Of a DNA stretch of 64,000 nt, positions 2-64,000 are shown in pieces. How positions within the stretch are numbered: position 1 is the first letter of the stretch; every line of letters begins with the position of its first letter. The notes below the pieces were generated by a model, which saw only the letters and a list, made by a program, of their open reading frames with translations, made no database searches and was not told the origin of the DNA. The translations under genes were made by a program, and so were the position numbers. Origin of the DNA: Streptantibioticus ferralitis (GTDB taxonomy: Bacteria > Actinomycetota > Actinomycetes > Streptomycetales > Streptomycetaceae); NCBI RefSeq assembly GCF_029223525.1, contig NZ_JARHTQ010000003.1, positions 310,001 to 374,000 of the forward strand, in the 5' to 3' direction.

Positions 2-3000
2 TTCCGGCTCGTCCAGGCCTGGGGTCTGATGCCCGACTTCCTGTCCGGGCATTCGATCGGTGAGCTGGCGGCTGCGCATGTGGCCGGGGTGTTGTCGCTG
101 GAGGATGCGTGCAGGCTGGTGGCGGCGCGTGGTCGTCTGATGCAGGAGCTGCCGGGTGGCGGTGCGATGGTCGCCGTGCAGGCGTCGGCGGATGAGGTTG
201 ATCAGCTGTTGACCGAGCGGGTCAGCATTGCCGCGATCAATGGTCCGACGTCGGTGGTGGTCGCGGGGGATGAGGACGCGGTGGTGGAGATCGCTGCGGG
301 CTTTGAGGCGCGGGGTCGTAAGACGAAGCGGTTGACCGTGAGCCATGCGTTCCATTCGCCGCACATGGACGGGATGCTGGCTGAGTTCCGTAAGGTTGCC
401 GAGGGGCTGTCGTACGAGGCGCCGCGTGTTCCGATCGTCTCGAACCTGACCGGTGCGGTGGTCTCCGCGGAGGAGATCTGTCTGCCGGACTTTTGGGTGC
501 GGCATGTTCGTGAGGCTGTGCGTTTCCTTGATGGGATCCGTGCTTTGGAGGCGGAGAACGTCACGACGTTCGTGGAGCTCGGCCCGGACGGTGTGTTGTC
601 GGCGATGGCGCAGGACTGTGTCGTGGCGGATGATGTCGCCGTGTTCGTTCCGGTCCTGCGCAAGGGCCGTGCCGAGGCCGAGTCGTTGACTGCCGCGCTG
701 GCCCAGGCGTACGTCCGGGGCCTGGTGGTCGACTGGCAGGCGTACTACGCCGGGACCGGCGCTGACCGCGTCGACCTGCCCACGTATGCCTTCCAACGCC
801 AGCGGTACTGGGTCGACACCTTCGCGGTGTTCGACGATGTGACGTCGGTCGGGCTCGGGCACGTCGGTCATCCGCTGCTGGGCGCGGCGGTGGAACTGCC
901 CGAGTCGGATGGGTTCCTCTTCACCGGCCGGTTGTCGTTGCAGAGCCACCCGTGGCTGGCCGACCACACGCTCATGGACACCGTCGTTCTGCCGCCCTCG
1001 GCCTTCGTCGAGCTGGCGATCCACGCCGGGGACCAGGTGGGCTGCGGTGGGGTGGACGAGTTGACGGTGGAGTCGCCGCTTGTCCTTCCCGAGCGCGGCG
1101 GGGTCCAACTGCGGGTGACCGTGGGCGAGCCCGACGAGTCCGGGCGGCGCGCCCTGAGCGTGCACTCGCGTCCGGACGACGCCACGGGAGACGGCGCCGT
1201 ACGGCCCGATCTGCCCTGGACCCGTAACGCCAGCGGTGTACTCACCGCTGCGGAGCCGAGCATCGCCCCGCAGCCCGATCTGGCCGTATGGCCCCCGGCC
1301 CGGGCCGTGGCGGCGCCGTCCGACGCGGCAGAGGTCTACCAGCGGCTGGCCGTGGCCGGGCTGGTACACGGGCCGGTGTTCCAGGGCCTGCACCAGGTGT
1401 GGACGCGCGACGACGAGGTCTACGCGGAAGTGCGTCTCGCGCCGGAGCAGCATGCTGACGCCGCCCGGTTCGCACTGCATCCGGCGCTGCTGGACGCGGC
1501 GCTGCACGCACGCGCCCCGCAGATCGCCGGGGACGGCCTGCCGCTCTCGTGGCGCGGCGTCGCACTGCACGCCTCCGGTGCCTTGACCCTGCGGGTACGG
1601 ATCGCCCCGGCGGGAACCGGCACGGTGTCGCTGACGGCGGCGGACGAGACGGGCACCCCCGTCGCGTCCGTGGCGGCCGTGGCACTGCGCCCGCTCTCCG
1701 CGGACCAACTCGCCGTCGTCCAGACGGCCGACGGCGGAACCACGCGGCACGATGCGCTGTTCCGCCTCAGCTGGGCACAACTGCCCGTCGCCTCGCCGAC
1801 GTCGAGCCGCTACGCGGTCATAGGCACCGTGGACGACGAGCTGACCGGAGCGCTGGCGGCGGCCGGTGTGCACGGCGAGGCGTTCGAGGACCTGGCGGCG
1901 CTGGACGCGGCCATCGCCGCCGGGCAACCGGTGCCGGATGCCGTCCTCGTACCCTGCCTCCACCCGACCACCGAAGAGTCGACCACCGAAGAGACGACTG
2001 CCCCAGAACCGACCGCCGCATCCGTTCGCGAGGCCGTCACCCGAGTCCTCGGCACGCTGCAATCGTGGCTGGCCGGTGAGCGGTTCGGCTCGGCGCGGCT
2101 GGTGCTGGTCACGCGGGGTGCGGTCGACACGGGCGGCGAATCGCTGCCAACGGACCTGGTCGGCGCGCCGCTTTGGGGACTGGCTCGCTCGGCGCAGTCC
2201 GAGAACCCGGACCGCATCGTGCTGCTCGACATCGACGGCACCGCTCCGACGCACTCGGCCCTACCCGGTGCCATCGCCTCCGGCGAACCCGAACTGGCCC
2301 TGCGCGCGGGCGTGGCGTACGTGCCGCGGCTCGCCAGGGCCGAGTCGGCCGCTGTCGGCGCCGCCCGTTCCATCGATCCGGAGGGAACCGTCCTGATCAC
2401 CGGAGCCACCGGTGGCCTGGGACGACTCCTCGCCGCACACCTTGTCGCCGAACACGGCGCGCGTCATCTGCTGCTGGTCAGCCGCAGCGGCGCGGCGGCC
2501 GAGGGCATGGCGGAACTCGGGGAGGAGCTCGGCGAGTTGGGGGCACAGGTCACGATGGCGGCCTGCGACGCCGCCGATCGTGAGGCACTGGCCGGACTCC
2601 TCGACGGGATTCCGGCCGAGCACCCGCTCACGGCCGTCGCCCACGTCGCCGCGGTGCTGGACGACGGCGTCGTCGACAAGCTGACGCCGGACAGGTTGGC
2701 TCATGTGCTGCGGCCCAAGGTCGACGCCGCGCTCAACCTGCATGAACTCACCAAGGACCGGGACCTGTCCGCGTTCGTGATGTTCTCGGCGGCGGCCGGC
2801 ACCCTCGGCGCCGCCGGGCAGGCGAACTACGCGGCGGCCAACGTCTTCCTGGACGCACTCGCCCGGCACCGGCACGCCCATGGGCTCCCGGCCGTATCGC
2901 TGGTGTGGGGCATGTGGGCCGAAGAGCGCGGTATGGCCGGCCGGTTGGCCGCCGCCGACCGCTCGCGCGCGGCACACGGCGGCATGGTGCCGCTGTCCGC

Positions 3001-3739
3001 CGACGAGGGCCTCGCACTGTTCGACGCCGCCGTCCGTACCGAAGAAGCCGTCCTGGTGCCCATCCGGCTCGACTTCGCCACGCTACGTGCGGCGGGAGCG
3101 GCCGGCGAGCTGCATCCGATGTTCCGGGGGCTGGTACGTACACCGGTCCGCCGGGCCGTGGAGCACGGGCACGGCGGTGCGGCCGAGAAGGAGACCCTGG
3201 AGCGGCGGTTGTCGCGGCTGTCGGAGGCCGAGCAGGAGCGTACGGTGCTCGACCTGGTACGCGGGCAGGTCGCCGCGGTACTGGGGTACGCGTCATCCGA
3301 CCTGGTGGGCGCCGGGCAGGCGTTCCGCGAGCTCGGCTTCGACTCCCTCACCGCCGTGGAACTGCGCAACCGGTTGAACGCGGCCACCGAACTGCGGCTG
3401 CCGGCCACCCTGATCTACGACTACCCGACACCGGCCGCGCTCGCCCAGTACCTGCGGGCAGAGGTCGCACCGGACGGGGCGGGGGAGCCGGGGATCTCCG
3501 TACTGGAGGAGCTGGACCGGCTGGAGAACTCCCTGTCCGCGCTGGCACCGGACGATGTCTCGGCGCTGGTGCCGGACGAGGCGGCGCACGCCCGTATCGC
3601 GGTACGGCTGCAGTCGCTCTTGGCGAAGTGGAACGACGTCCGCGGCGGCGCGGGAGAGGGCGGTACGGCGGACGTGCTCGAAGAGGCCAGCGACGACGAA
3701 CTCTTCGACTTCATCGACAAGAGGTTCGGCAAGGGCTGA
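2..3739 (+). CDS. Type I modular PKS, 3' end (AT-DH-KR-ACP, partial)
   Basis: The reading frame is open from the first full codon at base 2, so the gene continues upstream and the ATG at 29 is an internal Met of the AT domain. Domains in order: AT with active-site Ser in GHSIG (codon 53-55) and HAFH (344-355), the malonyl-CoA signature; DH from about 869 with catalytic His (965-967) and Asp (1493-1495); KR with Rossmann motif TGATGGLG near 2399, an LDD motif (B-type) and Tyr 2828-2830; ACP with the phosphopantetheine Ser in GFDSL (3344-3346). A helical docking tail ends in [14 protein letters not shown]. The module adds an acetate unit and should leave a double bond. However, the DH departs from consensus (HxxxD instead of HxxxG, LPPSAF instead of LPGTAF, HGP instead of YGP), and the KR has Ala where the catalytic Ser is expected (2789-2791), so full activity is not assured. 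The next PKS gene starts about 68 bases downstream. Confidence 0.96.
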
Positions 3740-3807
3740 GCGAGCGCTGACCGATCCGACACCGACTACCGCGACGATCTCGACCATTCCGAATGGGTGA
3801 AGCGCCA

Positions 3808-6800
3808 ATGGCGAACGAAGCAAGGCTCCGGGAATACCTCAAGAAGGTCACGACGGAACTCGACGAGACCTATGGACGGCTGCGGGAAATTGAGGACCAG
3901 GCACGGGAGCCCATTGCCATTGTGGCGATGAGCTGCCGTTTCCCCGGAGATGTGCGGTCGCCCGAGGAGCTGTGGCGGCTGCTGGAGTCGGGAACCGACG
4001 CGCTGTCCGGCTTCCCCCTCGACCGCGGCTGGGACGTCGAGGCGCTGTACGACCCGGATCCGGACTCCCCTGGCACCTCGTACACCCGTGAGGGCGGCTT
4101 CCTGAACGATGCCGCCCGGTTCGATCCGGCGTTCTTCGGGATCAGCCCGCGCGAGGCGCTGGCGATGGATCCGCAGCAGCGGCTGCTGCTGGAGACCTCG
4201 TGGGAGTCCTTCGAACGCGCGGGCATCGACCCGGGGACGCTGCGCGGCAGCCAGTCCGGTGTGTTCGTCGGCATCAACGGTTCGGACTATCTCAACGCGC
4301 TGCTGGAGGCGGACGACGACTTCGCCGGACATCTGGGCACCGGCAATGCGGCCAGCGTGATATCCGGCCGCCTTTCCTACACCTTCGGGCTGGAAGGGCC
4401 CGCCGTCACGGTGGACACGGCGTGCTCGGCCTCGCTGGTGGCACTGCACCTGGCGGTGCAGGCGCTGCGCAACGGTGAGTGCTCGCTGGCGCTCGCGGGC
4501 GGCGCGCATGTGATGGCGACCCCGGGCCTGTTCGTGGAGTTCAGCCGTCAGCGCGGTCTTTCCATCGACGGCCGCTGCAAGGCCTTCTCCTCCGACGCCG
4601 ACGGGTTCGGCCCGGCCGAGGGCGTGGGCATGCTGCTGGTGGAACGGCTCTCGGACGCCCGCAGGAACGGCCACCCGGTACTGGCGATCGTGCGTGGCAG
4701 TGCCATCAACCAGGATGGTGCGAGCAACGGTCTGACGGCGCCGAACGGCCCGTCGCAGCAGCGCGTCATCCGCCAGGCGCTGGCGAACGCCCGGCTCACC
4801 GCCGACCAGGTCGACGCGGTCGAGGCGCACGGTACGGGGACTTCGCTCGGTGACCCGATCGAGGCGCAGGCACTGCTGGCCACTTACGGTCAGGGGCGGC
4901 AGGAGGGGGAGCCGCTGCTGTTGGGGTCGTTGAAGTCCAACATCGGCCACACCCAAGGGGCCGCGGGTGTCGCGGGCGTGATCAAGATGGTGCTGGCGAT
5001 GCGGCACGGTGTGCTGCCGAAGTCGCTGCACATCGCCGAACCGTCGCCGCACGTGGACTGGTCGGCCGGTGCGGTGTCGCTGCTGACGCAGACCACCGAG
5101 TGGCCGCAGACCGGTCGGCCGCGACGTGCCGGAATCTCGGCCTTCGGCTTCAGCGGCACCAATGCCCATGTGATCGTCGAGCAGGCCCCGGTGGAGGAGG
5201 AGCAGGAGCCCGCCGGGGAACTGCCAGGCACCGTTCTGTGGCCGCTGTCCGGGAAGAGTGAGGGCGCGCTGCGCGGTCAGGCCGATCGGCTGCTCGCGCT
5301 GCTGGACGCCGACGCCGGGCTTCGCCCCGTCGATGTGGGCTGGTCGTTGGCGATGGGCCGGGCCGGACATGAGCACCGTGCGGTGGTGGCGGGCGAGGGA
5401 CTCGCCGAGCTGCGCTCCGGACTTGCGGCGTTGGCGGCTGACGGTATGGCCGCTGGGCTGACGCAGGGTGTGAGCGTCGGTGGTAAGTCGGTGTTTGTCT
5501 TTCCTGGGCAGGGGTCGCAGTGGGTGGGGATGGCGGTGGGGTTGTTGGATGCCTCGCCGGTGTTCGCTGCTCGGATCGATGAGTGTGCGGGGGCTTTGGA
5601 TCCGTTCACTGGTTGGTCTTTGGTGGATGTGTTGCGGGGGGTTGAGGGTGCGCCGTCGTTGGACCGGGTGGATGTGGTTCAGCCGGTGTTGTTCGCGGTG
5701 ATGGTGTCGTTGGCTGAGGTGTGGCGGTCGGTGGGTGTGGAGCCGGCGGCCGTGGTGGGTCATTCGCAGGGTGAGATCGCTGCTGCGTGTGTGGCCGGAA
5801 TCCTCGGCTTGGAGGATGCTGCGCGGGTTGTGGCGTTGCGTAGTCAGGCTATTGGGCGGGTGCTGGCCGGGTTGGGCGGCATGGTGTCCGTTGCGTTGCC
5901 GGTGGTGGCGGTGCGGGAGCGGATTGCCGTCTGGGGTGAGGACCGGATTTCGGTTGCCGCGGTGAACGGGCCGTCGTCGGTGGTGGTCTCGGGTGAACCG
6001 GGGGCGCTGGATGAGTTGTTGGCGTCGTGTGAGTCGGATGGTGTGCGGGCGCGTCGTATTCCGGTGGACTACGCGTCGCACTCCGCGCAGGTGGAGCTGC
6101 TGCGTGATGAGCTGCTGGAGCTTCTGGCGCCGATCGTGCCGCGGGCTGCGCGGGTGCCGTTCTTGTCGACGGTGTCGGGTGAGTGGGTGGAGGGTCCGGA
6201 GCTTTCTGCGGAGTACTGGTTCCGTAACCTGCGGCAGACCGTGGAGTTGGAGAGCGCCACTCGTACGTTGTTGGAGCAGGGTTTCGGGGTGTTCATCGAG
6301 TCCAGCCCGCACCCGGTGCTGACCGTGGGCGTGCAGGAGACCATCGAGGACTCCGGCCGAGACGCGGCCGTCCTGGGTTCGCTGCGTCGCGACGAAGGCG
6401 GCTTGGACCGCTTCTACGCCTCCCTGGGTGAGGCGTATGTTCGCGGTGTGACGGTGGACTGGGATGCCGTCTTCGCGGGCACCGGTGCCCGCCGGGTCGA
6501 GCTGCCGACGTACGCCTTCCAGCGTCAGCGGTACTGGCCGGAGGCCGCCGCGCCGGAGGAGATCGCGGCAGCGCCGACGGATCCGATCGACGCCCTGTTC
6601 TGGGAGGCCGTCGAGCGCGAGGACCTGGAATCGCTCGCCGAGACGCTGGAGATCGAGGGCGATCAGCCACTCAGCTCCGTACTGCCCGTGCTGTCCTCCT
6701 GGCGTCGTACGAACCGCGAGCGGTCGACGGTGGACGGCTGGCGCTACCGCGTCGCCTGGAAGCCGCTTCCGGAGGATGCCACCGCCCGGTTGTCCGGGAC

Positions 6801-8709
6801 CTGGCTGCTCATCTCGTCCGAGACCGAAGCCGCCAGGGCGACGGACACCGCCCGCGTCCTCACCGAACGCGGCGCGACCGTACGGCAGTTGGTGCCGGCC
6901 GCCACCGACCGCGAGTCGCTGGCCGAGCTGCTGCGCGCGGAGCAAGCGGAGGACGGCGGTACGACCTTTGGCGGGGTGCTCTCCCTCCTGGCGTTCGGCA
7001 GCCAACCCCTGCATTCCGCTGTGGCGTTGGTGCAGGCGATGTCGGACGCCGAGGTCAACGCCCCGTTGTGGTGTGCGACCCGTGGCGCTGTCTCCGTCGG
7101 TGCCGCCGAGCGGCTGGAGAATCCGACTCAGGCGCTGGTGTGGGGCCTTGGCCGGGTGGCGTCCATGGAGCACGGCGAGCGGTGGGGCGGGCTGGTGGAC
7201 CTCCCGGAGGTCGCCGACGACCGCGCGCTGGCCCGTATGGTCGCCGTGTTGGCCGGGACGGACGGGGAGGACCAGGTCGCGGTCCGCTCCTCCGGTCTGT
7301 TCACCCGCAGGCTGGTCCGCGCCTCCCTGGCGCAGACGCCCGCGGTACGCGCCTGGCAGCCGGACGGCACCGTCCTGGTCACCGGCGGTACGGGCACGCT
7401 CGGCGGACATGCCGCCCGCCATCTGGCCCGCAACGGCGCCAAGCACCTCCACCTGACCAGCCGACGCGGCGAAGACACGCCGGGCGCCGCCGAACTGCTC
7501 GCCGAACTGCAGGAGTTGGGCGCCGAGGTCACCATCTCCGCCTGCGACATCGCCGACCGGGACGCGCTGGCCGCACTGCTGGCCGCCATCCCCGATGAGC
7601 GTCGGCTGTCGGCGGTCGTGCACACCGCGGCGGTGCTCGACGACGGCGTGATCGAAGGCCTGACCCCGGCACAGGTTGACGGAGTGCTGCGGGTCAAGGT
7701 CGACGGGACGCTCAATCTGCATGAGCTGACCCGTGATCTGGACCTGTCCGCCTTCGTGATGTTCTCGTCCTTCGCGGCCACGTTCGGGGCGCCGGGACAG
7801 GGCAACCAGGCCCCCGGCAACGCCTTCCTCGAGGCGCTGGCGGAACAGCGCCGCGCCGACGGCCTGACCGCCACCACCATCTCCTGGGGGCCGTGGGGTG
7901 ATGGCAGCGCGGTGGGCGGTGCCATCGGTGACCGTATGCGCCGTCACGGCATCAACGAGATGGCACCCGAGCGGGCGGTCGCCGCACTGGGCCATGTGCT
8001 GGACCGGGACGAGACGGTGCTGACCGTCATCGACATGGAGTGGAAGCGGTTCGCGCTCGCCTTCACCGCGGACCGTGCACGACGCCTGCTGCATGAGCTG
8101 CCCGAGGCGCGCCAGGTCATCGAGAACGCGCAGAACGACACCGCGGACGACCTCACCGGCGGTGTTCCGCTCGCCAAGCAGCTCGCGGGACTGCCGGGCA
8201 GCGAGCAGGAGCGCCTGCTGCTGGACTTGGTGCGCGGCGCCGTGGCCGCCGTTCTCGGTTACTCGGGTACCGAGGCGGTCGAGGCGAACCGGGCCTTCAA
8301 GGAGTTGGGCTTCGACTCGCTGACCGCCGTGGAGCTACGCAACCGGTTGGGTGCGGCGACCGCGCTGAAGCTGCCGCCCACCCTGATCTTCGACCACCCC
8401 ACGCCGTCCGCGGTGGCGGGCTATCTGCGGGTCGAGGTGCTGCCCGATGCGGAGGGCACCGGCGCGCCGGTGCTCGAAGAGCTGGACCGGCTGGAATCCC
8501 TGCTCGCCGACAGCACCCCGGACAACGTGACCCGGGCCCGGGTCACCATGCGTCTGCAGTCGCTGCTGGCGAAGTGGAACGACACCGAGGCCCCCGCGGC
8601 CGAGGAGCCGGGGACGTCGGGGGGCATTCTGGACGACGTCGACCAGCTGCAGTCGGCGTCCGACGAGGAGCTCTTCGCGTTCATCAACAAGGGACTCGGC
8701 CGGGAATGA
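3808..8709 (+). CDS. Type I modular PKS, one module: KS-AT(methylmalonyl)-KR(Tyr lost)-ACP
   Basis: One complete extension module of 1633 residues. An N-terminal coiled-coil docking head ([13 protein letters not shown]) is followed by KS (about 34-460; Cys206 in TACSAS, His341, His381), AT (about 560-905; Ser653 in [11 protein letters not shown] and YASHS from 755, the methylmalonyl-CoA signature), KR (Rossmann TGGTGTLGG near 1192) and ACP (Ser1504). The tail ends in [14 protein letters not shown]. The KR motif reads GQGNQAPGN where GQGNYAPGN is expected: catalytic Tyr is Gln1334 (codon 7807-7809), with Ser1321 and the cofactor motif kept. I infer a C2-type KR without ketoreduction, possibly still epimerising the methyl branch. 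Start: an in-frame ATG lies at 3793, but 3808 is chosen because GGGTGAAG sits 5 bases upstream and because it places the KS Cys at residue 206, as in genes C and E. The post-AT linker closely matches module E2, the KR-ACP half module E1. Confidence 0.95.
5455..6662 (+). repeat. Near-identical methylmalonyl AT tract, copy 1 (gene B)
   Basis: Encodes the AT domain of gene B and its post-AT linker. Compared by eye, it matches copy 2 in module E1 from its first base to about 6417 and copy 3 in module E2 from about 5573 to 6662, with roughly ten base differences in each pairing and no indels. Codons here end in G or T far more often than in flanking DNA (many TTG, GTG, GGT). Identity with E2 runs through the linker and stops at 6662. 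Confidence 0.85.
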
Positions 8710-9002: not shown

Positions 9003-12000
9003 ATGGCGAATGAAGAGACGCTGCGGGACTACCTCAAGCTGGTGACGGCGGATCTGCATCAGACCCGGCAACGCCTGCGCGAGGCCGAGGCGAAGAACCA
9101 GGACCCCATAGCCGTCGTGGGGATGAGTTGCCGCTACCCGGGGGGCATCAACTCCCCTGAGGACCTGTGGCAACTGGTCACCGACGGCGAGGACGCGATC
9201 AGCGACTTTCCCGCCGACCGCGGCTGGGATCTCGACACCGTTTACCACCCGGACCCCGAGCACCCGGGCACCGCCTACGTCCACCAGGGCGGGTTCGTCC
9301 GCGACTTCGCCCAGTTCGATCCCGGTGTCTTCGGTATCTCGCCCCGCGAGGCCCTTTCCATGGATCCGCAGCAGCGGTTGCTGCTGGAGACCTCGTGGGA
9401 GGCGTTCGAGCGGGCCGGTATCGACCCGACCTCGATGCGCGGCAAGCAGGTCGGCGTCTTCGTCGGCACCAGCAGCCACGACTACCTCACCGCTCTGTTG
9501 AGCTCGTCGGAAGACCTTGAGGGCTATCTGGGCACCGGCAACGCGGCGAGCGTGGCCTCCGGCCGGGTGTCGTACACCTTCGGGCTGGAAGGCCCCGCGG
9601 TCACCATCGACACCGCGTGCTCCTCGTCGCTGGTCGCGCTGCATCTGGCGGTTCAGTCGCTGCGCAACGGCGAGTGCTCGCTGGCGCTGGCCGGTGGCGC
9701 GACGCTGATGTCGGCGCCCGGCACGTTCATCGACTACAGCAAGCAGCGCGGCCTGGCCATGGACGGCCGCTGCAAGGCGTTCTCGACGGAGGCCGACGGG
9801 TTCAGCCTGTCGGAGGGCGTCGGCATCCTGCTGGTGGAGCGGCTGTCCGACGCGCGCCGCAAGGGTCATCCGGTGCTCGCGGTGGTCCGCGGTACCGCGG
9901 TGAACCAGGACGGCGCGAGCAACGGCCTGACCGCGCCCAACGGCCCCTCGCAGCAGCGCGTCATCCTCCAGGCGCTGTCGAACGCCCGGCTCACACCCGA
10001 CGAGGTCGACGCCGTGGAGGCGCACGGCACCGGCACCGCCCTCGGTGACCCGATCGAGGCCCAGGCGCTGCTGGCCACCTACGGCAAGGACCGGCCGAAG
10101 GAACGGCCGCTGTGGCTGGGCTCGTTGAAGACCAACATCGGCCACGCACAGGCCGCCGCAGGTGTCGCGGGCGTCATCAAGTCGGTCATGGCCATACGGG
10201 CCGGCACGCTGCCCAAGACGCTCCACCTCACCGAGCCGACTCCGCATGTGGACTGGTCGGCGGGCGAGGTCTCGCTGCTCACCGAGGCCCGGCCGTGGCC
10301 GGACAACGGCAGGCCGCGCCGGGTGGGCGTCTCGTCGTTCGGCATGAGCGGCACCAACGCGCACACCATTCTGGAGCAGGCACCCGCCGCGGAGTCCGCG
10401 GCTACCGACACCGCCTCGTCCTTGCCGTTCGTCCCTGTCGCGCTGTCCGGCAAGGACGAGGCGGCCCTGCGTACCCAGGCCGAGCGGCTTCACGCGTACC
10501 TTGAGGCGGAGCCGGGCGTGTCCCTGGCTGATGTCGGGTTTTCGCAGGCTGTCACCCGTGCCGCGTTGGATCGGCGTGCGGTGGTTGTCGCCGGGGACCG
10601 TGCGGATCTGCTGGCGGGCCTGGCCGAGCTTGCGGCCGGTCGCACGTCCGCCGCGCTGGTGGAGGGGACGGCCGCCGAGGGCAAGGTGGCGTTCCTGTTC
10701 ACCGGGCAGGGCAGCCAGCGGCTGGGGATGGGCCGGGAGCTTTACGAGACGTATCCCGCCTTCGCCGCCGCGCTGGACGCGGTGTGCGAACGGATCGAAC
10801 TACCCCTGCGCGACGTGCTGTTCGGGACCGACGCCGACCTGCTGGACCAGACCGGCTACACGCAGCCCGCGTTGTTCGCGGTCGAGGTGGCGCTGTTCCG
10901 GTTGGTGGAGTCCTGGGGGCTGCGGCCGGACTTCCTGACCGGGCACTCCATTGGTGAGCTGGCGGCGGCGCACGTTGCCGGGGTGCTGTCGCTCGATGAC
11001 GCGTGCACGTTGGTGGCGGCGCGTGGCCGTCTGATGCAGGAACTGCCGGGCGGCGGCGCGATGGTGGCCGTCGAGGCCTCGGCGGACGAGGTCACTCCAC
11101 TGTTGACCGACCGGGTCAGCATTGCCGCGGTCAACGGTCCGACGTCGGTCGTCATCGCGGGCGACGAGGACGCGGCCCTGGAGATCGCCGCGGGCTTCGA
11201 GGGGCAGGGTCGTAAGACCAAGCGGCTGACCGTCAGCCACGCCTTCCACTCGCCGCACATGGACGGCATGCTGGACGCGTTCCGTGCGGTGGCCGAGGGG
11301 CTGACGTTCAACGCCCCGCGCATCCCGATCGTCTCCAACCTCACCGGCGAGCTGGTCTCCGCCGATGAGATCGGCACGCCCGAGTTCTGGGTACGGCACG
11401 TCCGCGAGGGGGTGCGCTTCCTCGACGGCATCCGCTGGCTGGACGGCCACGGTGTGACGACATACCTCGAACTCGGCCCGGGCGGTGTGCTGTCGGCCAT
11501 GGGCCAGGCCTGCGTCACCCGACCCGACGCGGCCTTCGTGCCCGCACTGCGCACCGACCGTGCCGAGCCGCAGACGCTGACCGCCGCCATCGCGCGCGCC
11601 CAGGTCCGCGGCTTCGCCCCGGACTGGGAGGCGTACTTCTCGGGCACCGGAGCGTCCCGCGTCGACCTGCCCACGTATGCCTTCCAGCGCCGCAAGTACT
11701 GGCCGCGTGACCCGTTCTCCGAGCCGACCGACGCCCTGGGCACCACCGTGCTGGACGCGGTCAGCGCCCGGTTCTGGGAGGTCGTGGACAACGAGGACCT
11801 GGCGGCGCTCACCGGAACCCTCGGCGTGGACGCCGAACAGCCGCTCAGCGCGGTGCTGCCCGCGCTGTCCGCATGGCACCGCCAGAGCCGTGACCGCTCC
11901 ACCGTCGACAGCTGGCGCTACCGCGTCACCTGGCAGCCGCTGACGTACTCCGCGCCGAAGCCGCTGACCGGAACCTGGCTGCTGGTCGCCCCCACCGGGC

Positions 12001-18000: not shown

Positions 18001-21000
18001 GCGACGTGGCCGACCGGGACGCCCTCGCGGAGGTGCTGGCCTCGATTCCGGCAGCGCACCCGCTGACCGCCGTCATCCATGCGGCGGGCGTGCTCGACGA
18101 CGGTGTCATCGGGTCGTTGACCGACGACCGTATGGACCGGGTGCTGCGTCCGAAGGTGGACGCCGCGCTGCATCTGCACGAGCTGACCCGCGACCTCGAC
18201 CTGTCCGCGTTCGTGCTGTTCTCCTCGTCCTCCGCTGTCTTCGGCGGCCCCGGCCAGGGCAACTATGCGGCGGCGAACGCCTTCCTGGACTCGCTGGCCC
18301 AGCACCGCCGGGCGCAGGGGCTCACCGCGACCGCGCTGGCCTGGGGCCTGTGGGCGGTCGCGGACGGTATGGCGGGCGGCCTGGACGAGGCGGACATCAG
18401 CCGCATGCGGCGCGCGGGCCTGCCGCCGCTCACCGCCGAGGACGGACTCGCGCTGTTCGACGCCGCACGTTCGGTGGACACGGCCGCCCTGGTTCCGATG
18501 CGGGTGGACCTCGCGGCGCTGCGTACCCAGGCCGCGGCGGGCACGATCGCACCGGTGCTGCGCGGTCTGGTCCGCACCCCGGTACGCCGGGTCGTCGACG
18601 GCGCGACCGGTGCTGGTGAATCGGGCCTGGCGCAGCGGCTGTTGGGCCGCTCCGAGGATGAGCAGCACCGTGTGGTGCTCGACCTGGTCCGCGCCCAGGT
18701 GGCCGCGGTACTCGGCCACGCCGGGCCGGAGGCCGTCGAGTCCGGCCGGGCGTTCAAGGAGCTCGGCTTCGACTCGCTGACCGCCGTTGAGCTGCGCAAC
18801 CAGCTCAACGCGGCGACCGCGCTGCGGCTGCCCGCGACGCTGATCTTCGACTACCCCGACCCGACCACGCTCGCCCGCCATCTGCGTACCGAGCTGACCG
18901 GCACCGGCGCGGCCGCGGTCACGCCGGTGGTCGCGGCCGGTACCGCCGCCGACGAGCCGATCGCCATCGTCGCGATGAGCTGCCGCTACCCGGGCGGTGT
19001 GCGCACCCCCGAGGACCTGTGGCGACTGCTCGCCGCGGGCTCCGACGGCATCTCGGCCCTCCCCGGAAACCGTGGCTGGGACCTGGACGCCCTCTACCAC
19101 CCGGACCCGGACCACCAGGGCACCTCCTACGCCCGCGAGGGCGGCTTCCTGCACGACGCGGCCGAGTTCGACCCGGCGTTCTTCGGGATAAGTCCGCGCG
19201 AGGCGCTGGCCATGGACCCGCAGCAGCGGCTGCTGCTGGAGACCTCCTGGGAGGCGTTCGAACGCGCGGGCATCGATCCGCTGTCGACCCGCGGCAGCCG
19301 TACCGGTGTGTTCGCGGGCGTGATGTACCACGACTACGGCGCCCGGCTGCACGCCATCCCGGACGAGGTCGAGGGCTATCTCGGCACCGGCAGCTCCAGC
19401 AGTGTGGTGTCCGGCCGGGTGGCCTACACCTTCGGGCTCGAAGGCCCCGCGGTCACCGTCGACACCGCCTGCTCCTCGTCGCTGGTGGCACTGCATCTGG
19501 CGGCGCAGGCGCTGCGCAACGGCGAATGCGAGCTGGCGCTGGCCGGTGGTGTCACCGTGATGTTCACGCCGGGTACGTTCATCGAGTTCAGCCGCCAGCG
19601 CGGGCTCGCCGCCGACGGCCGCTGCAAGTCGTTCGCCGCCGCTGCCGACGGCACCGGTTGGGGCGAGGGCGCGGGCATGCTGCTGCTGGAGCGGCTGTCG
19701 GACGCCCAGCGCAACGGCCACCAGGTGCTGGCGGTGGTGCGTGGCTCGGCCGTCAACCAGGACGGTGCGAGCAACGGTCTGACCGCGCCCAACGGCCCCT
19801 CGCAGCAGCGCGTCATCCGGCAGGCCCTGGCCAACGCCCGGGTGTCCGCCGCCCAGGTCGATGTGGTCGAGGCGCACGGCACGGGCACCACGCTGGGCGA
19901 CCCGATCGAGGCACAGGCCCTGCTCGCCACCTACGGCCAGGGCCGTCCCGAGGGGCAGCCGCTGTGGCTCGGCTCGGTCAAGTCCAACCTGGGCCACACA
20001 CAGGCCGCTTCGGGCGTCGCCGGCGTGATGAAGATGGTGCTGGCGATGCGGCACGGGCTGCTGCCCCAGACCCTGCACGTGGACCAGCCGTCACCGCATG
20101 TGGACTGGTCCGCGGGCGCCGTCTCGCTGTTGACCGAGGCACGGGAGTGGCCGCGGACCGAGGAGCCGCGCCGAGCCGGTGTGTCGTCCTTCGGCATCAG
20201 CGGCACCAACGCGCACGTCATCATCGAGCAGGCACCGACGGCCGATGCACCGGAGCCCAGGACGGCGGAGCCCGACGCGGCGGACGCTGAACTTCCGATC
20301 GTTCCCCTGCTGTTGTCGGCACGTGGTGAGGACGCACTACGCGCCCAGGCGCGGCGGCTGCGCTCCCAGGCGCTGGCCGACCCCGAGGCGAGCCTGACGG
20401 ACCTCGGCTTCTCGCTGGCCACCACGCGTGCGGCACTGGAGCAGCGGGCTGCCGTGCTGGCCGGTGGCCGGGACGAGGCGCTCCGCGCCCTCGATGCCCT
20501 GGCACGTGGCGAGTCGGCGCCGAACCTGCTGCTTGACACGGCGGTCGAGGGCAAGGTGGCGTTCCTGTTCACCGGCCAGGGCAGTCAGCGACTGGGTATG
20601 GGCCGGGAGCTGTACGAGGTGTATCCGGTCTTCGCCGAGGCGCTGGACGCGGTGTGTGAGCGCTTCGACATGCCGCTGCGGGATGTGCTGTTCGGTTCGC
20701 AGCGCGAGTTGCTGGACCGGACCGGCTACACGCAGCCCGCGCTGTTCGCGGTCGAGGTGGCGCTGTTCCGACTCGTTGAGTCGTGGGGGCTGCGGCCGGA
20801 CTTCCTGTCCGGGCACTCGATCGGTGAGTTGGCGGCGGCGCATGTCGCTGGTGTGCTGTCGCTGGAGGACGCGTGCACGTTGGTGGCGGCGCGTGGTCGT
20901 CTGATGCAGGAGCTGCCGGGTGGCGGCGCGATGGTCGCCGTGCAGGCGTCGGCGGACGAGGTTGATCAACTGTTGACCGAGCGGGTCAGCATCGCCGCGA

Positions 21001-43500: not shown

Positions 43501-46500
43501 ACGACGCGACGTCCCGCCTCTCCGGCACCTGGCTGCTCATCGCGCCGACCGCCGACAGCGTGTGGGCGGCGGACACGGCCCGCACCCTCGCCGAACGCGG
43601 TGCGGCCGTCCGTCAGTTGACGCCCGCCGCCACCGACCGTGCATCACTCACGGAACTGCTCCGCGAGGAGACCGCCGACGGCGAGGGCGTCACCGGCGTA
43701 CTGTCGCTGCTCGCCCTGGACGGCGGGCAGCCGCTGCACGCGTCCATGGCGCTGGTGCAGGCGCTGGGTGACGCGGAGATCGACGCGCCGTTGTGGTTCG
43801 CCACGCGCGGTGCGGTGGCCGTGGACCGCTCGGAGCCGCTGGACGACCCGGAGCAGGCCCTGGTGTGGGGCCTCGGCCGGGTGGTGGCGCTGGAGCACGG
43901 TGAGCGGTGGGGCGGTCTCGTGGACCTTCCGCAGACCGCTGACGAGCGTGCGCTGTCCCGGCTGGTCGCGGCGCTGGCCGGGACCGACAGCGAGGACCAG
44001 GTGGCGGTGCGGCCCTCCGGCCTCCTCGCCCGCAGGCTGGTGCGCGCCTCGCTGGCGCAGTCGCCCGTCGTACGCACCTGGCGGCCGGACGGGACCGTCC
44101 TGGTCACCGGCGGCACGGGCGCCCTGGGCGCGCACGTCGCCCGCTACCTGGCCCGCGAGGGTGCGCGCCATCTCGTACTGACCAGCCGCCGTGGCCCCGA
44201 CGCCCCCGGCGCCGCCGAACTGCGTGACGAACTGGCCGAGTTGGGGGCGGACGTCACCATTGCCGCCTGCGATGTCGCCGACCGGGACGCACTCGCCGCC
44301 CTGCTGGCCGCCATCCCCGCCGATCGTCCGCTGACCGCGGTCGTGCACACCGCGGCCGTGCTCGACGACGGGGTCATCGAGGCGCTGACTCCGGAGCAGC
44401 TCGACCGGGTGCTCCGCGTCAAGCTGGACGCGACGCTCAACCTGCACGAACTGACCCGCGACCTGGACCTGTCCGCCTTCGTGCTGTTCTCGTCCTTCGC
44501 GGCCACCTTCGGTGCCCCCGGACAGGGCAACTACGCGCCGGGGAACGCGTTCCTCGACGCCTTCGCCCAGCACCGGCGCGACGCCGGACTGCCCGCGACC
44601 TCGGTGGCGTGGGGGCCGTGGGGCGACGGCGGAATGGCGGAGGGCGCGGTCGGTGACCGCATGCGCCGGCACGGAGTCATCGAGATGGCGCCCGAACTCG
44701 CCGTCACCGCACTCCAGCACGCCCTGGACCGGGACGAGACCACGCTGACCGTCGCCGACATGGAGTGGAAGCGTTTCGTCCTTGCCTTCACCTCCGGCCG
44801 TCCGCGCCCGCTGCTGCACGACCTGCCCGAGGCCCGCGCGGTCATGGACGCCCTGCGCGCCGACGCCGAGGAGGAGGCGGCCGATGGCGTGGCGCTCGTC
44901 CAGCGGCTCGCGGGCCTGCCCGAGTCCGAACAGGAGCGTCTGCTGCTGGAGTCGGTGCGCGGCGCCGTGGCATCCGTCCTCGGCTACCAGGGCTCTGAGG
45001 CGGTGGAGCCGAACCGGGCCTTCAAGGAACTCGGCTTCGACTCGCTGACCGCCGTGGAACTGCGAAACCGGCTGAACGCCGCCACCGCGCTGAAGCTGCC
45101 GCCGACCCTGATCTTCGACTATCCGACGCCCACCACTCTCGCGAAGTTCCTGCGTACCGAACTGTCCGGTGAGCAGGGCGCGATAGCGGTCCCGCTGCCG
45201 ACCGCCGCGGCCGCCGACGATGAGCCCATCGCGATCGTGGCGATGAGCTGCCGCTTCCCGGGAGACGTACGGTCGCCGGAGGAGCTGTGGCGGCTGCTGG
45301 AATCGGGCGGCGACGCGCTGTCCGGCTTCCCGCTCGACCGCGGTTGGGACGTCGAGGCGCTGTACGACCCGGATCCGGACGCCCAGGGCACGTCCTACAC
45401 CCGTGAGGGCGGCTTCCTGAGCGACGCGGCACGGTTCGACTCCGGGTTCTTCGGGATCAGCCCGCGTGAGGCCCTTGCGATGGATCCGCAGCAGCGGCTG
45501 CTGCTGGAGACCTCGTGGGAGGCGTTCGAGCGGGCCGGGATCGATCCCGCGACGCTGCGCGGCAGCCAGTCCGGTGTCTTCGTCGGCACCAACGGCTCCG
45601 ACTACTCGATGCTCATGCAGGGCAGCGCCGACGGCTTCGAGGGACACCTCGCGACGGGAACCGCCGGGAGCGTCGTCTCCGGCCGTCTGTCCTACACGTT
45701 CGGGCTGGAAGGGCCCGCCGTCACCGTGGACACGGCGTGCTCGGCCTCGCTGGTCGCGCTGCACCTGGCGGTGCAGGCACTGCGCAGCGGGGAGTGCTCG
45801 TTGGCGCTCGCGGGCGGCGTGACCGTGATGTCGACCCCTGGCACGTTCATCGAGTTCAGCCGTCAGCGCGGTCTTTCCACCGACGGCCGCTGCAAGGCCT
45901 TCTCCTCGGACGCCGACGGGTTCACCCCGGCCGAAGGCGTGGGCATGCTGCTGGTCGAGCGGCTGTCGGACGCGCAGCGCAACGGCCATCCGGTGCTGGC
46001 GATCGTCCGGGGCACCGCCATCAACCAGGACGGCGCGAGCAACGGTCTGACGGCGCCGAACGGCCCGTCGCAGCAGCGCGTCATCCGCCAGGCGCTGGCC
46101 AACGCCCGGCTGTCCGCCGCCGAGGTGGACGTCGTCGAGGCGCACGGTACGGGGACTTCGCTCGGTGACCCGATCGAGGCGCAGGCACTGCTGGCCACCT
46201 ACGGGCAGGGCCGGTCGGAGGACCAGCCGCTGCTGCTGGGGTCGATCAAGTCCAACATCGGCCACGCGCAGGCCGCTGCGGGTGTCGCGGGTGTGATGAA
46301 GATGGTGCTGGCGATGCGGCACGGTGTGCTCCCGCAGAGCCTGCACATCGCCGAGCCGACGCCGCACGTGGACTGGTCGGCCGGTGCGGTGTCGCTGCTG
46401 ACGCAGACCACCGAGTGGCCGCAGACCGGTCGGCCGCGGCGGGCGGGCGTGTCGTCGTTCGGCTTCAGCGGTACGAACGCGCACGCCCTACTCGAACAGG

Positions 46501-49500
46501 CCCCTATATCCGAAAACGAGACCCCGGCTGTCGGGACCGAGTCTCCCGCCGCCGACAACGACGCCCCGGCACAGGGCGCCGATGTGTCGCCGGTCGTGCC
46601 GTGGGTACTGTCCGGAAAGAGCGAGTCGGCGCTGCGCGGACAGGCCGAGCGGCTGCTGACCCACCTCGGCACCCACGATGACCTGCGATCCGCTGACGTG
46701 GGCTACTCACTGGCGACCACCCGGACCGCCCTCGACCACCGCGCGGTGGTGATCGGCCGGGACCGCGACGACTTCGTCCGCGGACTGGACGCGCTGGTTC
46801 AGGGGCTGAGCCTGCCGAGCCTCGTTGAGGGGGCCGGAGTCGGGGGCCAAGGGGTCTTCCTGTTCCCCGGACAGGGGTCGCAATGGGTAGGCATGGCCGT
46901 CGGGTTGTTGGACGCTTCACCCGTGTTCGCTGCCCGGATCGATGAGTGTGCGGCGGCTTTGGATCCGTTCACTGATTGGTCTTTGGTGCATGTGTTGCGG
47001 GGGGTTGAGGGTGCGCCGTCGTTGGACCGGGTGGATGTGGTTCAGCCGGTGTTGTTCGCGGTGATGGTGTCGTTGGCTGAGGTGTGGCGGTCGGTGGGTG
47101 TGGAGCCCGCGGCTGTGGTGGGTCATTCGCAGGGTGAGATCGCTGCCGCGTGTGTGGCCGGAATCCTCGGCTTGGAGGATGCTGCGCGGGTTGTGGCGTT
47201 GCGTAGTCAGGCTATTGGGCGGGTGCTGGCCGGGTTGGGCGGCATGGTGTCCGTTGCGTTGCCGGTGGTGGCGGTGCGGGAGCGGATTGCCGCCTGGGGT
47301 GAGGACCGGATTTCGGTTGCCGCTGTGAACGGGCCGTCGTCGGTGGTGGTCTCGGGTGAACCGGGGGCGCTGGATGAGTTGTTGGCGTCGTGTGAGTCGG
47401 ATGGTGTGCGGGCGCGTCGTATTCCGGTGGACTACGCGTCGCACTCCGCGCAGGTGGAGCTGCTGCGTGATGAGCTGCTGGAGCTTCTGGCGCCGATCGT
47501 GCCGCGGGCTGCGCGGGTGCCGTTCTTGTCGACGGTGTCGGGTGAGTGGGTGGAGGGTCCGGAGCTTTCTGCGGAGTACTGGTTCCGTAACCTGCGGCAG
47601 ACCGTGGAGTTGGAGAGCGCCACTCGTACGTTGTTGGAGCAGGGTTTCGGGGTGTTCATCGAGTCCAGCCCGCACCCGGTGCTGACCGTGGGCGTGCAGG
47701 AGACCATCGAGGACTCCGGCCGAGACGCGGCCGTTCTGGGTTCGCTGCGTCGCGATGAAGGCGGCTTGGACCGTTTCTACGCCTCCCTGGGTGAGGCGTA
47801 TGTTCGCGGTGTGACGGTGGACTGGGATGCCGTCTTCGCGGGCACCGGTGCCCGCCGGGTCGAGCTGCCGACGTACGCCTTCCAGCGTCAGCGGTACTGG
47901 CCGGAGGCCGCCGCGCCGGAGGAGATCGCGGCAGCGCCGACGGATCCGATCGACGCCCTGTTCTGGGAGGCCGTCGAGCGCGAGGACCTGGAATCGCTCG
48001 CCGAGACGCTGGAGATCGAGGGCGAGCCGCTGGGCGCCGTACTGCCCGCGCTGTCCTCCTGGCGTCGGCAGAGCCGTGAGAAGTCGACGGTGGACGGCTG
48101 GCGCTACCGCGTGAACTGGCAGCCGCTGGCTGAGGAGCGGGCGTCCCGCCTCACCGGAACTTGGCTTGTCGTCGTACCGAAGACCGCGGCCGACGGCGAG
48201 TGGCCCACCGCCGCGGCTCGGATGCTCGCCGAACGCGGCGCCTCCGTACGTGAGGTGGTGCTTGATCCGGCCGATGCCGATCGCAAGCCCCTGGTCGACC
48301 GCCTCCGCGATGAGGTGGTGGACGGCGAGCGTCTCGGCGGTGTGCTCTCGCTGCTCGGGTTCGACGGCCATCCGCAGGGCCTGCACGGCTCGCTGGCGCT
48401 CGTCCAGGCACTGGGCGATGCCGGGATCGACGCCCCGCTGTGGTGTGCGACGCGCGGCGCGGTGTCCGTGGCGGCGGCGGACCCGGTACGGGATCCGGCC
48501 CAGGCACTGCTGTGGGGCTTCGGCCGGACCGCGGCCCTGGAGTACCCCGAGCGCTGGGGCGGCCTCGTCGATCTGCCGGAGAACCCCGATGAGCGCGCGC
48601 TGTCCCGCCTGGTCGCGGTGCTGGCCGGGGTGGACGGCGAGGACCAGGTCGCCGTCCGATCCTCGGGACTGTTCGCCCGCAGGCTGGTACGCGCTTCGCT
48701 CGCCGACGCGGGCGCGGTGCGTGACTGGCGGCCGGACGGCACCGTCCTGGTCACCGGCGGTACCGGAGCGCTCGGCGGGCATGTCGCCCGCTGGCTGGCC
48801 CGCAGCGGCGCCAAGCACCTCGTGCTGACCAGCCGCCGCGGCCCCGACGCGCCCGGCGCGGCCGAACTGCGCGCCGAGCTGAACGAGTTGGGCGCCGATG
48901 TCACCATCGCGGCCTGCGATGCCGCCGACCGCGAGGCGCTCGCCGGACTGCTCGCCGCCATTCCCGCCGACAGTCCGCTCACCGCGGTCGTCCACGCGGC
49001 GGGCGTGCTCGACGACGGTGTGCTCGACGCGCTGACGCCGGACCGGTTCGCCACCGTGCTGGGGCCCAAGGCCGACGCGGCACTCAACCTGCATGAGCTG
49101 ACCCGGGACCTGGACCTGTCGGCGTTCGTCCTGTTCTCAGGTGTCGCGGGCACGCTCGGTGACGCCGGACAGGCCAACTACGCGGCCGCCAACGCGTACC
49201 TGGACGCGCTGGCGGAACACCGCCGCGCGGCGGGCCTCACCGCCACCTCCGTGGCCTGGGGACGTTGGGGCGACAGCGGTCTGGCCGCGGGCGGCGCCAT
49301 CGGCGACCGACTGGACCGCGGCGGGATCCCGGCCATGGCACCGCAGTTGGCGATCAGCGCGCTGCAGCAGGCGCTGGACCACGATGAGACGGCCGTCGCC
49401 ATCGCGGACATCCGCTGGGACCTGTTCGCCCCCGGCTTCACCGCCGTCCGCCACAGCCCGTTCATCGGCGAACTGCCCGAGGTGCGGCGGCTGGCGCGGA

Positions 49501-50090: not shown

Positions 50091-50159
50091 CGGTAGCACG
50101 ACAGAGCGCGGGCATTCCCGGCGCAAGCGTTTGTGACGAGAAGCATGGGTGAGGTTCCA

Positions 50160-64000
<13,841 letters not shown>

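Follow-up and report, generated by a model that had tools for sequence, protein, structure and literature searches.

The ketoreductase (KR) of gene B, a single-module polyketide synthase (PKS) protein encoded in the 64,000-nucleotide stretch of DNA analysed here (the window), is probably a C2-type domain, that is, a non-reducing KR which inverts the alpha-methyl group, which would derive from B2-type KRs and which would operate in a module of a neotetrafibricin-type synthase. The Tyr proton donor of this KR is gone, so that the domain should not reduce, a conclusion in which we have high confidence; a C2-type KR at this point of the assembly line is very likely to leave an alpha-methyl ketone. 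That the domain would also epimerise the methyl group seems likely from its sequence, and is the least certain part of this reading.

Gene B (3793..8709, on the forward strand, as are all features described here) encodes a protein of 1638 aa with the organization docking-KS-AT-DE-KR-ACP, in which DE is a dimerisation element. Its AT (5491..6453, recognised by domain and motif matches) displays the motifs GHSQG and YASH (YASH at 6070), which we take to be methylmalonyl-specific, a specificity read from the motif only. The KR catalytic domain (7366..7899) corresponds to the Pfam KR match at residues 1192-1369, and the ACP (8227..8427) was located by a domain match. The fold of the KR is clear because its best-matching solved chains, Lsd14 and DEBS KR1, match it strongly. 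The sequence at 7795-7821, GGACAGGGCAACCAGGCCCCCGGCAAC, is translated as GQGNQAPGN, and its codon CAG at 7807-7809 places Gln1339 at the position of the catalytic Tyr, as determined by motif match and alignment. A pattern allowing Tyr or Gln, which gave a mean of 0.00 matches on 100 shuffles, matched 12 KR motifs within the window, 11 of them with Tyr and only that of gene B with Gln. The closest KR in the window is that of module E1 (77% identity over the aligned KR region), a Tyr-bearing (TAC) paralogue of the B2 type according to motif, alignment and tree, with the motif GQGNYAPGN at 44520..44546. The KR of gene B retains the cofactor motif TGGTGTLGG as well as Lys1302, Ser1326 and Asn1343, the catalytic Ser position presumably lying 13 residues ahead of the catalytic Tyr. 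An earlier note on this DNA had described the CAG codon in place of Tyr, E1 with its TAC as the otherwise closest KR, and the kept cofactor motif and Ser, all of which are borne out by the sequence, the 12-motif comparison and the identity to E1; its claim that module B loads methylmalonyl agrees with the YASH motif of the AT.

Other KRs of the window show variations of their own. The Ser position is occupied by Ala in the KR motifs of gene A (2816-2842) and F1 (54858-54884) and by Gly in that of E2 (49167-49193), each with a Ser one residue earlier. The second KR of gene C (motif at 18252-18278) has the cofactor motif TGASGSLA, with Ala for the third Gly, and the next KS possesses an enoyl-type VMYH loop.

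Over approximately 8 kb spanning genes B and C, the window displays 86.3% DNA identity with Streptantibioticus rubrisoli DSM 42083 (locus L008) and 87.0% with Streptomyces sp. RPT161 (locus L034). S. rubrisoli Inha501 produces Inha-neotetrafibricin (I-NTF), and its PKS IV to VII comprise 1633, 5121, 5309 and 3169 aa according to the available part of PMC8312574; these sizes are matched by genes B to E of the window, whose ORFs encode 1638, 5137, 5332 and 3186 aa. The gene order, the sizes of IV to VII and the presence of three methylmalonyl-type ATs are those of a neotetrafibricin-type system, and the window is read, on this comparison of sequences, as part of a neotetrafibricin-type linear polyene PKS, with gene B as the putative counterpart of PKS IV (Tfb4) by size and by synteny with the DSM 42083 and RPT161 loci. 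The likeness to the neotetrafibricin PKS consists of a single-module protein IV of near-equal size and of proteins V to VII that match genes C to E, whereas the DNA differs by some 13-14% (versus DSM 42083), which indicates that the window is from another species or strain, and only part of the pathway lies within the window, the starter, glycosyltransferase and amidinohydrolase genes being outside it. This places the synthase in an antifungal family of linear polyenes that is already known and that the earlier note did not identify. A literature search for the position of the ketone in tetrafibricin or neotetrafibricin found no paper stating it. Tetrafibricin is a 12-methyl-13-oxo compound, which was given no weight in our confidence.

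An older C2 predictor, quoted in PMC11228615, is based on a kept Tyr and an absent NADPH motif, and the gene B KR departs from it on both points, its Tyr being absent and its NADPH motif present. In the updated description given in the accessible text of that paper, most C2 KRs retain Tyr and some have Gln, they resemble A2 or B2 KRs, and their Lys is kept; the gene B KR, which is B2-like, keeps its Lys and has Gln for Tyr, corresponds to this description. The rule applied in the earlier note, in which an intact NADPH site and a missing Tyr define the C2 class, differs from the published definition. C2 KRs with Gln have already been reported (PMC11228615, same text), and the gene B KR would be a new member of this variant. 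The domain resembles C2-type KRs such as DEBS KR3 and PIKS KR3 in its predicted lack of reduction, its epimerising-type ancestry and its methylmalonyl module; it differs in having Gln and an intact NADPH motif, whereas those KRs are, in the literature available, mostly Tyr-bearing with mutations in the NADPH site. All four B2 markers, LDD, P(10), H(13) and Q(3), are present: the gene B KR shares with the B2-type KRs DEBS KR1 and E1 the LDD, the Pro two residues after the Tyr position, the Gln at position 3 and the lid-end His, but, unlike them, it is without the lid GM motif and has Gln1339 in place of the catalytic Tyr of an active B2-type KR. According to PMC11228615, in the portion available, GM is highly conserved in reducing KRs except those of the A2 type, and the Pro and the His are B2 signatures. 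The loss of the catalytic Tyr is shared with tetromadurin KR14, where it is consistent with a keto group, and which differs in its B1-type surroundings and its pathway (PMC7489565, partial text). In vivo, ketones were obtained with LipPks1 by changing Tyr to Phe, in a study that calls the Ser partly replaceable (PMC6212451, partial text).

The distribution of the Gln-bearing KRs (Q-KRs) was examined by scanning contigs of at least 3 kb from 84,980 species genomes for the pattern GQ[AG]NQA[AP][AG]N, which gave 47 stretches; 29 of these were found in KR context, all with one 12-letter protein motif and all from Streptomycetaceae, and the other 18 had no KR context. Since the pattern demanded Gln, Tyr-bearing orthologues would be missed, and the 29 loci do not show the share of orthologues that keeps Tyr. 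A quick tree of 53 KRs, calculated without bootstrap, grouped the 27 full-length Q-KRs (that of gene B and those of 26 of the 29 loci; L009, L042 and L046 were too short) in one clade with an SH-aLRT of 93, short of the 95 that the tool itself sets as its mark, and this clade was sister to the Tyr-bearing E1 KR of the window (SH-aLRT 99), beside other B2-like KRs. The Q-KR clade is, as its place in the tree indicates, derived from B2-type (epimerising) KRs. Wherever the position is covered, the Q-KRs possess the three NADPH glycines (27/27), the Lys (29/29) and the Asn (30/30), as well as the B2 markers Pro (30/30), Gln at position 3 (29/29) and lid-end His (29/29); LDD is less constant at its first two positions (L in 9/29, D in 20/29), and SRRG has Leu for Arg in two of 27. 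The AT displays YASH in gene B and in 17 of the 29 loci, those where the AT of the Q-KR module is visible, so that by motif these are methylmalonyl modules, as is expected for the C2 type. The alignment columns show that all 29 Q-KRs with a readable lid lack the Met of its GM motif. GM was found in 93 of 107 Tyr-bearing KRs, and in all five listed Tyr-bearing KRs with the B2 Pro, by a rough script that misread three of 31 'Q' rows (one of them the KR of the window itself, another an L055 KR), and which was replaced by the alignment columns.

The catalytic Ser position is occupied by Ser in 15 and by His in 15 of the 30 Q-KRs. The 15 His/Gln KRs (L003, L010, L015, L016, L019, L020, L022, L027, L029, L030, L036, L041, L042, L044 and L046) belong for the most part to members of the S. 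violaceusniger group and to relatives of S. olivoreticuli/griseocarneus. Ser is also absent from its usual position in 16 of the 120 Tyr-bearing KRs read by script (15 with Ala, one with Gly), in which the neighbouring Ser is kept; the Ser at the usual position may therefore not be essential, and the change of Ser to His was rejected as proof of inactivity.

The first alternative is that the KR of gene B is fully inactive, performing neither reduction nor epimerisation (a C1-type outcome), and is kept as a structural part of the module. This explanation, which we consider rather unlikely, is favoured by the Tyr and Ser mutants of the C2 KRs DEBS KR3 and PIKS KR3, which lost much of their epimerase activity (PMC5331325, partial text), and by the His that occupies the Ser position in half of the Q-KRs. 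It is opposed by the evolution of the catalytic part, which resembles that of an active KR. In the only two pairs compared, the window versus DSM 42083 and versus RPT161, dN/dS was 0.142 and 0.131, respectively, for the catalytic part of the Q-KR, and 0.140 and 0.135 for the Tyr-bearing KR of module C1; the corresponding values were 0.284 and 0.226 for the structural half of the gene B KR, with intervals that overlap those of the catalytic half, 0.203 and 0.226 for the ACP plus linker, and 0.080 and 0.076 for the C1 KS. The constraint on the catalytic part is thus similar to that on a KR with Tyr, which makes a dead remnant less likely, and decay of the domain is disfavoured for the catalytic part by these two comparisons, overlapping intervals included. 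The invariance of the Lys, the Asn, the NADPH glycines and the B2 markers across the Q-KRs, and the Gln reported in some C2 KRs (PMC11228615, partial text), likewise speak against full inactivity. By analogy with the KR3 mutants, the Gln may weaken the epimerase activity of the gene B KR.

The modules on either side of gene B were also considered. The end of gene A (2..3739, an ORF cut by the window, its last module AT-DH-KR-ACP assigned from domains and the DH motif) encodes a DH (869-1708) with LVHGP, while the other seven of the eight DHs matched in the window have YGP; a missing Tyr of YGP is a mark of DH inactivity (PMC7489565, partial text). The KS loop of gene B is INGS and not the VMYH of enoyl-accepting KSs. 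From the LVHGP and INGS motifs, the DH of gene A is probably inactive, and module A, ahead of module B, would leave a hydroxyl. On the other side, gene B hands its chain to a KS of gene C, in which the KS alignment places the loop TSSH at residues 156-159 (9468..9479), and the receiving KS has TS[NS]H in the window and in all 23 loci where it is visible, six of the 29 loci ending too early; this correlation represents one lineage and not 24 independent cases. None of 110 other readable KSs has this loop (152 examined, 18 unreadable). The Asn of the TNGQ loop, proposed to help repel beta-keto chains (PMC11321453, partial text), is absent from TS[NS]H. As a control, 12 named Streptomyces plasmid regions were inspected, the whole set providing 59 same-protein module-KS pairs, and no clear C-type KR was recognised in the 12 regions. 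Five modules of this plasmid set have no KR hit; two of them feed a TNGQ KS and three, with a DH motif, feed a VTYQ KS, which rules out TS[NS]H as a general mark of beta-keto acceptance, and the loop of the receiving KS is given little weight as support for a ketone. The third KS of gene F, after the ER module, has the loop QMHN, versus VMYH and TNGQ elsewhere.

For I-NTF, the available part of PMC9421130 describes 27 modules, the removal of a guanidine group and an aglycone C61H95NO15 with m/z 1082.66. A C4 amino starter, 27 two-carbon units and three methyls amount to C61, and the window contains exactly three YASH ATs (B, E1 and E2). From the H and O count of this published formula, the number of ketones equals the number of fully saturated beta carbons; as gene F (50133..63998, an ORF that runs off the window) carries an ER in its second module (F2, motif near 60063), at least one ketone is required. 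Module B is the only ketone candidate in the window, and if it is the sole source of a ketone, 8 hydroxyls and 7 alkenes account for the 15 modules that lie beyond the window, with none left over. The balance permits extra ketones elsewhere, and allows a hydroxyl at module B only if another module leaves a ketone. It presupposes that the product is a linear acid which undergoes no other oxidation or reduction, that the ER of F2 is active, that the other modules in the window are read correctly, and that the window strain makes the I-NTF skeleton. The balance uses the published number of modules (27) and the carbon count rather than gene sizes, because the I-NTF gene sizes in table 2 of PMC8312574 sum to 182 kb of coding DNA versus the 167 kb stated in PMC9421130; at least one entry of the size table, as available, is probably misprinted. 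The proposal of the earlier note, a non-reducing KR leaving a ketone beside a methyl branch, draws support from the absence of the Tyr and of the lid GM and from the elemental balance, and more weakly from the KS loop; its suggestion that the methyl may be inverted fits the B2 origin of the domain and the B2 markers that it retains.

A hydroxyl at this position of the product, formed because the KR still reduces with Gln in the role of Tyr or because another KR acts in trans, is very improbable. The kept NADPH glycines and the purifying selection on the catalytic part are compatible with it, as is tetromadurin KR12, which is without Tyr and yet has a hydroxyl in its product (PMC7489565, partial text), and the KS loops are not decisive, since a KS of the TNGQ type can also accept the chain of a module that has no KR. 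However, the lid GM is absent from every readable Q-KR, and some other module would then have to supply the ketone that the elemental balance requires. The poor capacity of Gln as a proton donor was counted against a reducing KR. A sequencing or assembly error as the source of the Gln codon, raised by the earlier note as a misread at 7807, can be dismissed, since Tyr codons and CAG are two base changes apart (7807 changed to T alone gives the stop TAG, and 7809 changed alone gives His), so that a single wrong base cannot account for Gln1339, and since Gln is also present in 29 other contigs together with the matching lid change.

Under the preferred C2-type reading, a B2-type ancestor that both epimerised and reduced would have lost reduction through the change of Tyr1339 to Gln and the loss of the lid GM. 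Module B would add methylmalonate and hand on a 2-methyl-3-ketoacyl chain, whose beta-keto group would most likely still be held by Gln together with Ser1326, Lys1302 and Asn1343 while the methyl centre is inverted. Gln could act as hydrogen-bond donor towards the keto group, a role suggested in PMC11228615 (partial text), so that enolisation and methyl inversion remain plausible. The predicted local product is CH(OH)-CH2-C(=O)-CH(CH3)-CH(OH)-CH2-pentaene.

More tentatively, and with considerable doubt, the Q-KR clade may have arisen as a reductase was turned step by step into a specialised methyl epimerase, a class that is Tyr-less and keeps its cofactor. The change of Tyr to Gln and the loss of the lid GM would have been followed by the change of Ser to His in half of the clade, the NADPH glycines would be under selection because the bound cofactor still shapes the active site, and the receiving KS with its TS[NS]H loop would be adapted to the chain delivered by the epimerase. 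A non-exhaustive literature search, with the 2017 primary neotetrafibricin PKS paper outside it, found neither a description of the Gln clade as one lineage nor an account of the lid-motif loss, the selection or the formula argument for the Q-KRs.

The known picture of non-reducing KRs is unchanged by the gene B KR. The natural Ser/Gln and His/Gln pairs make the question of which residues are involved in epimerisation testable, and in the 29 further natural Tyr-to-Gln KRs epimerisation may be uncoupled from reduction while the cofactor motif stays intact. In the antifungal linear polyene family, the KR of gene B would place a ketone, and perhaps the configuration of a methyl group.
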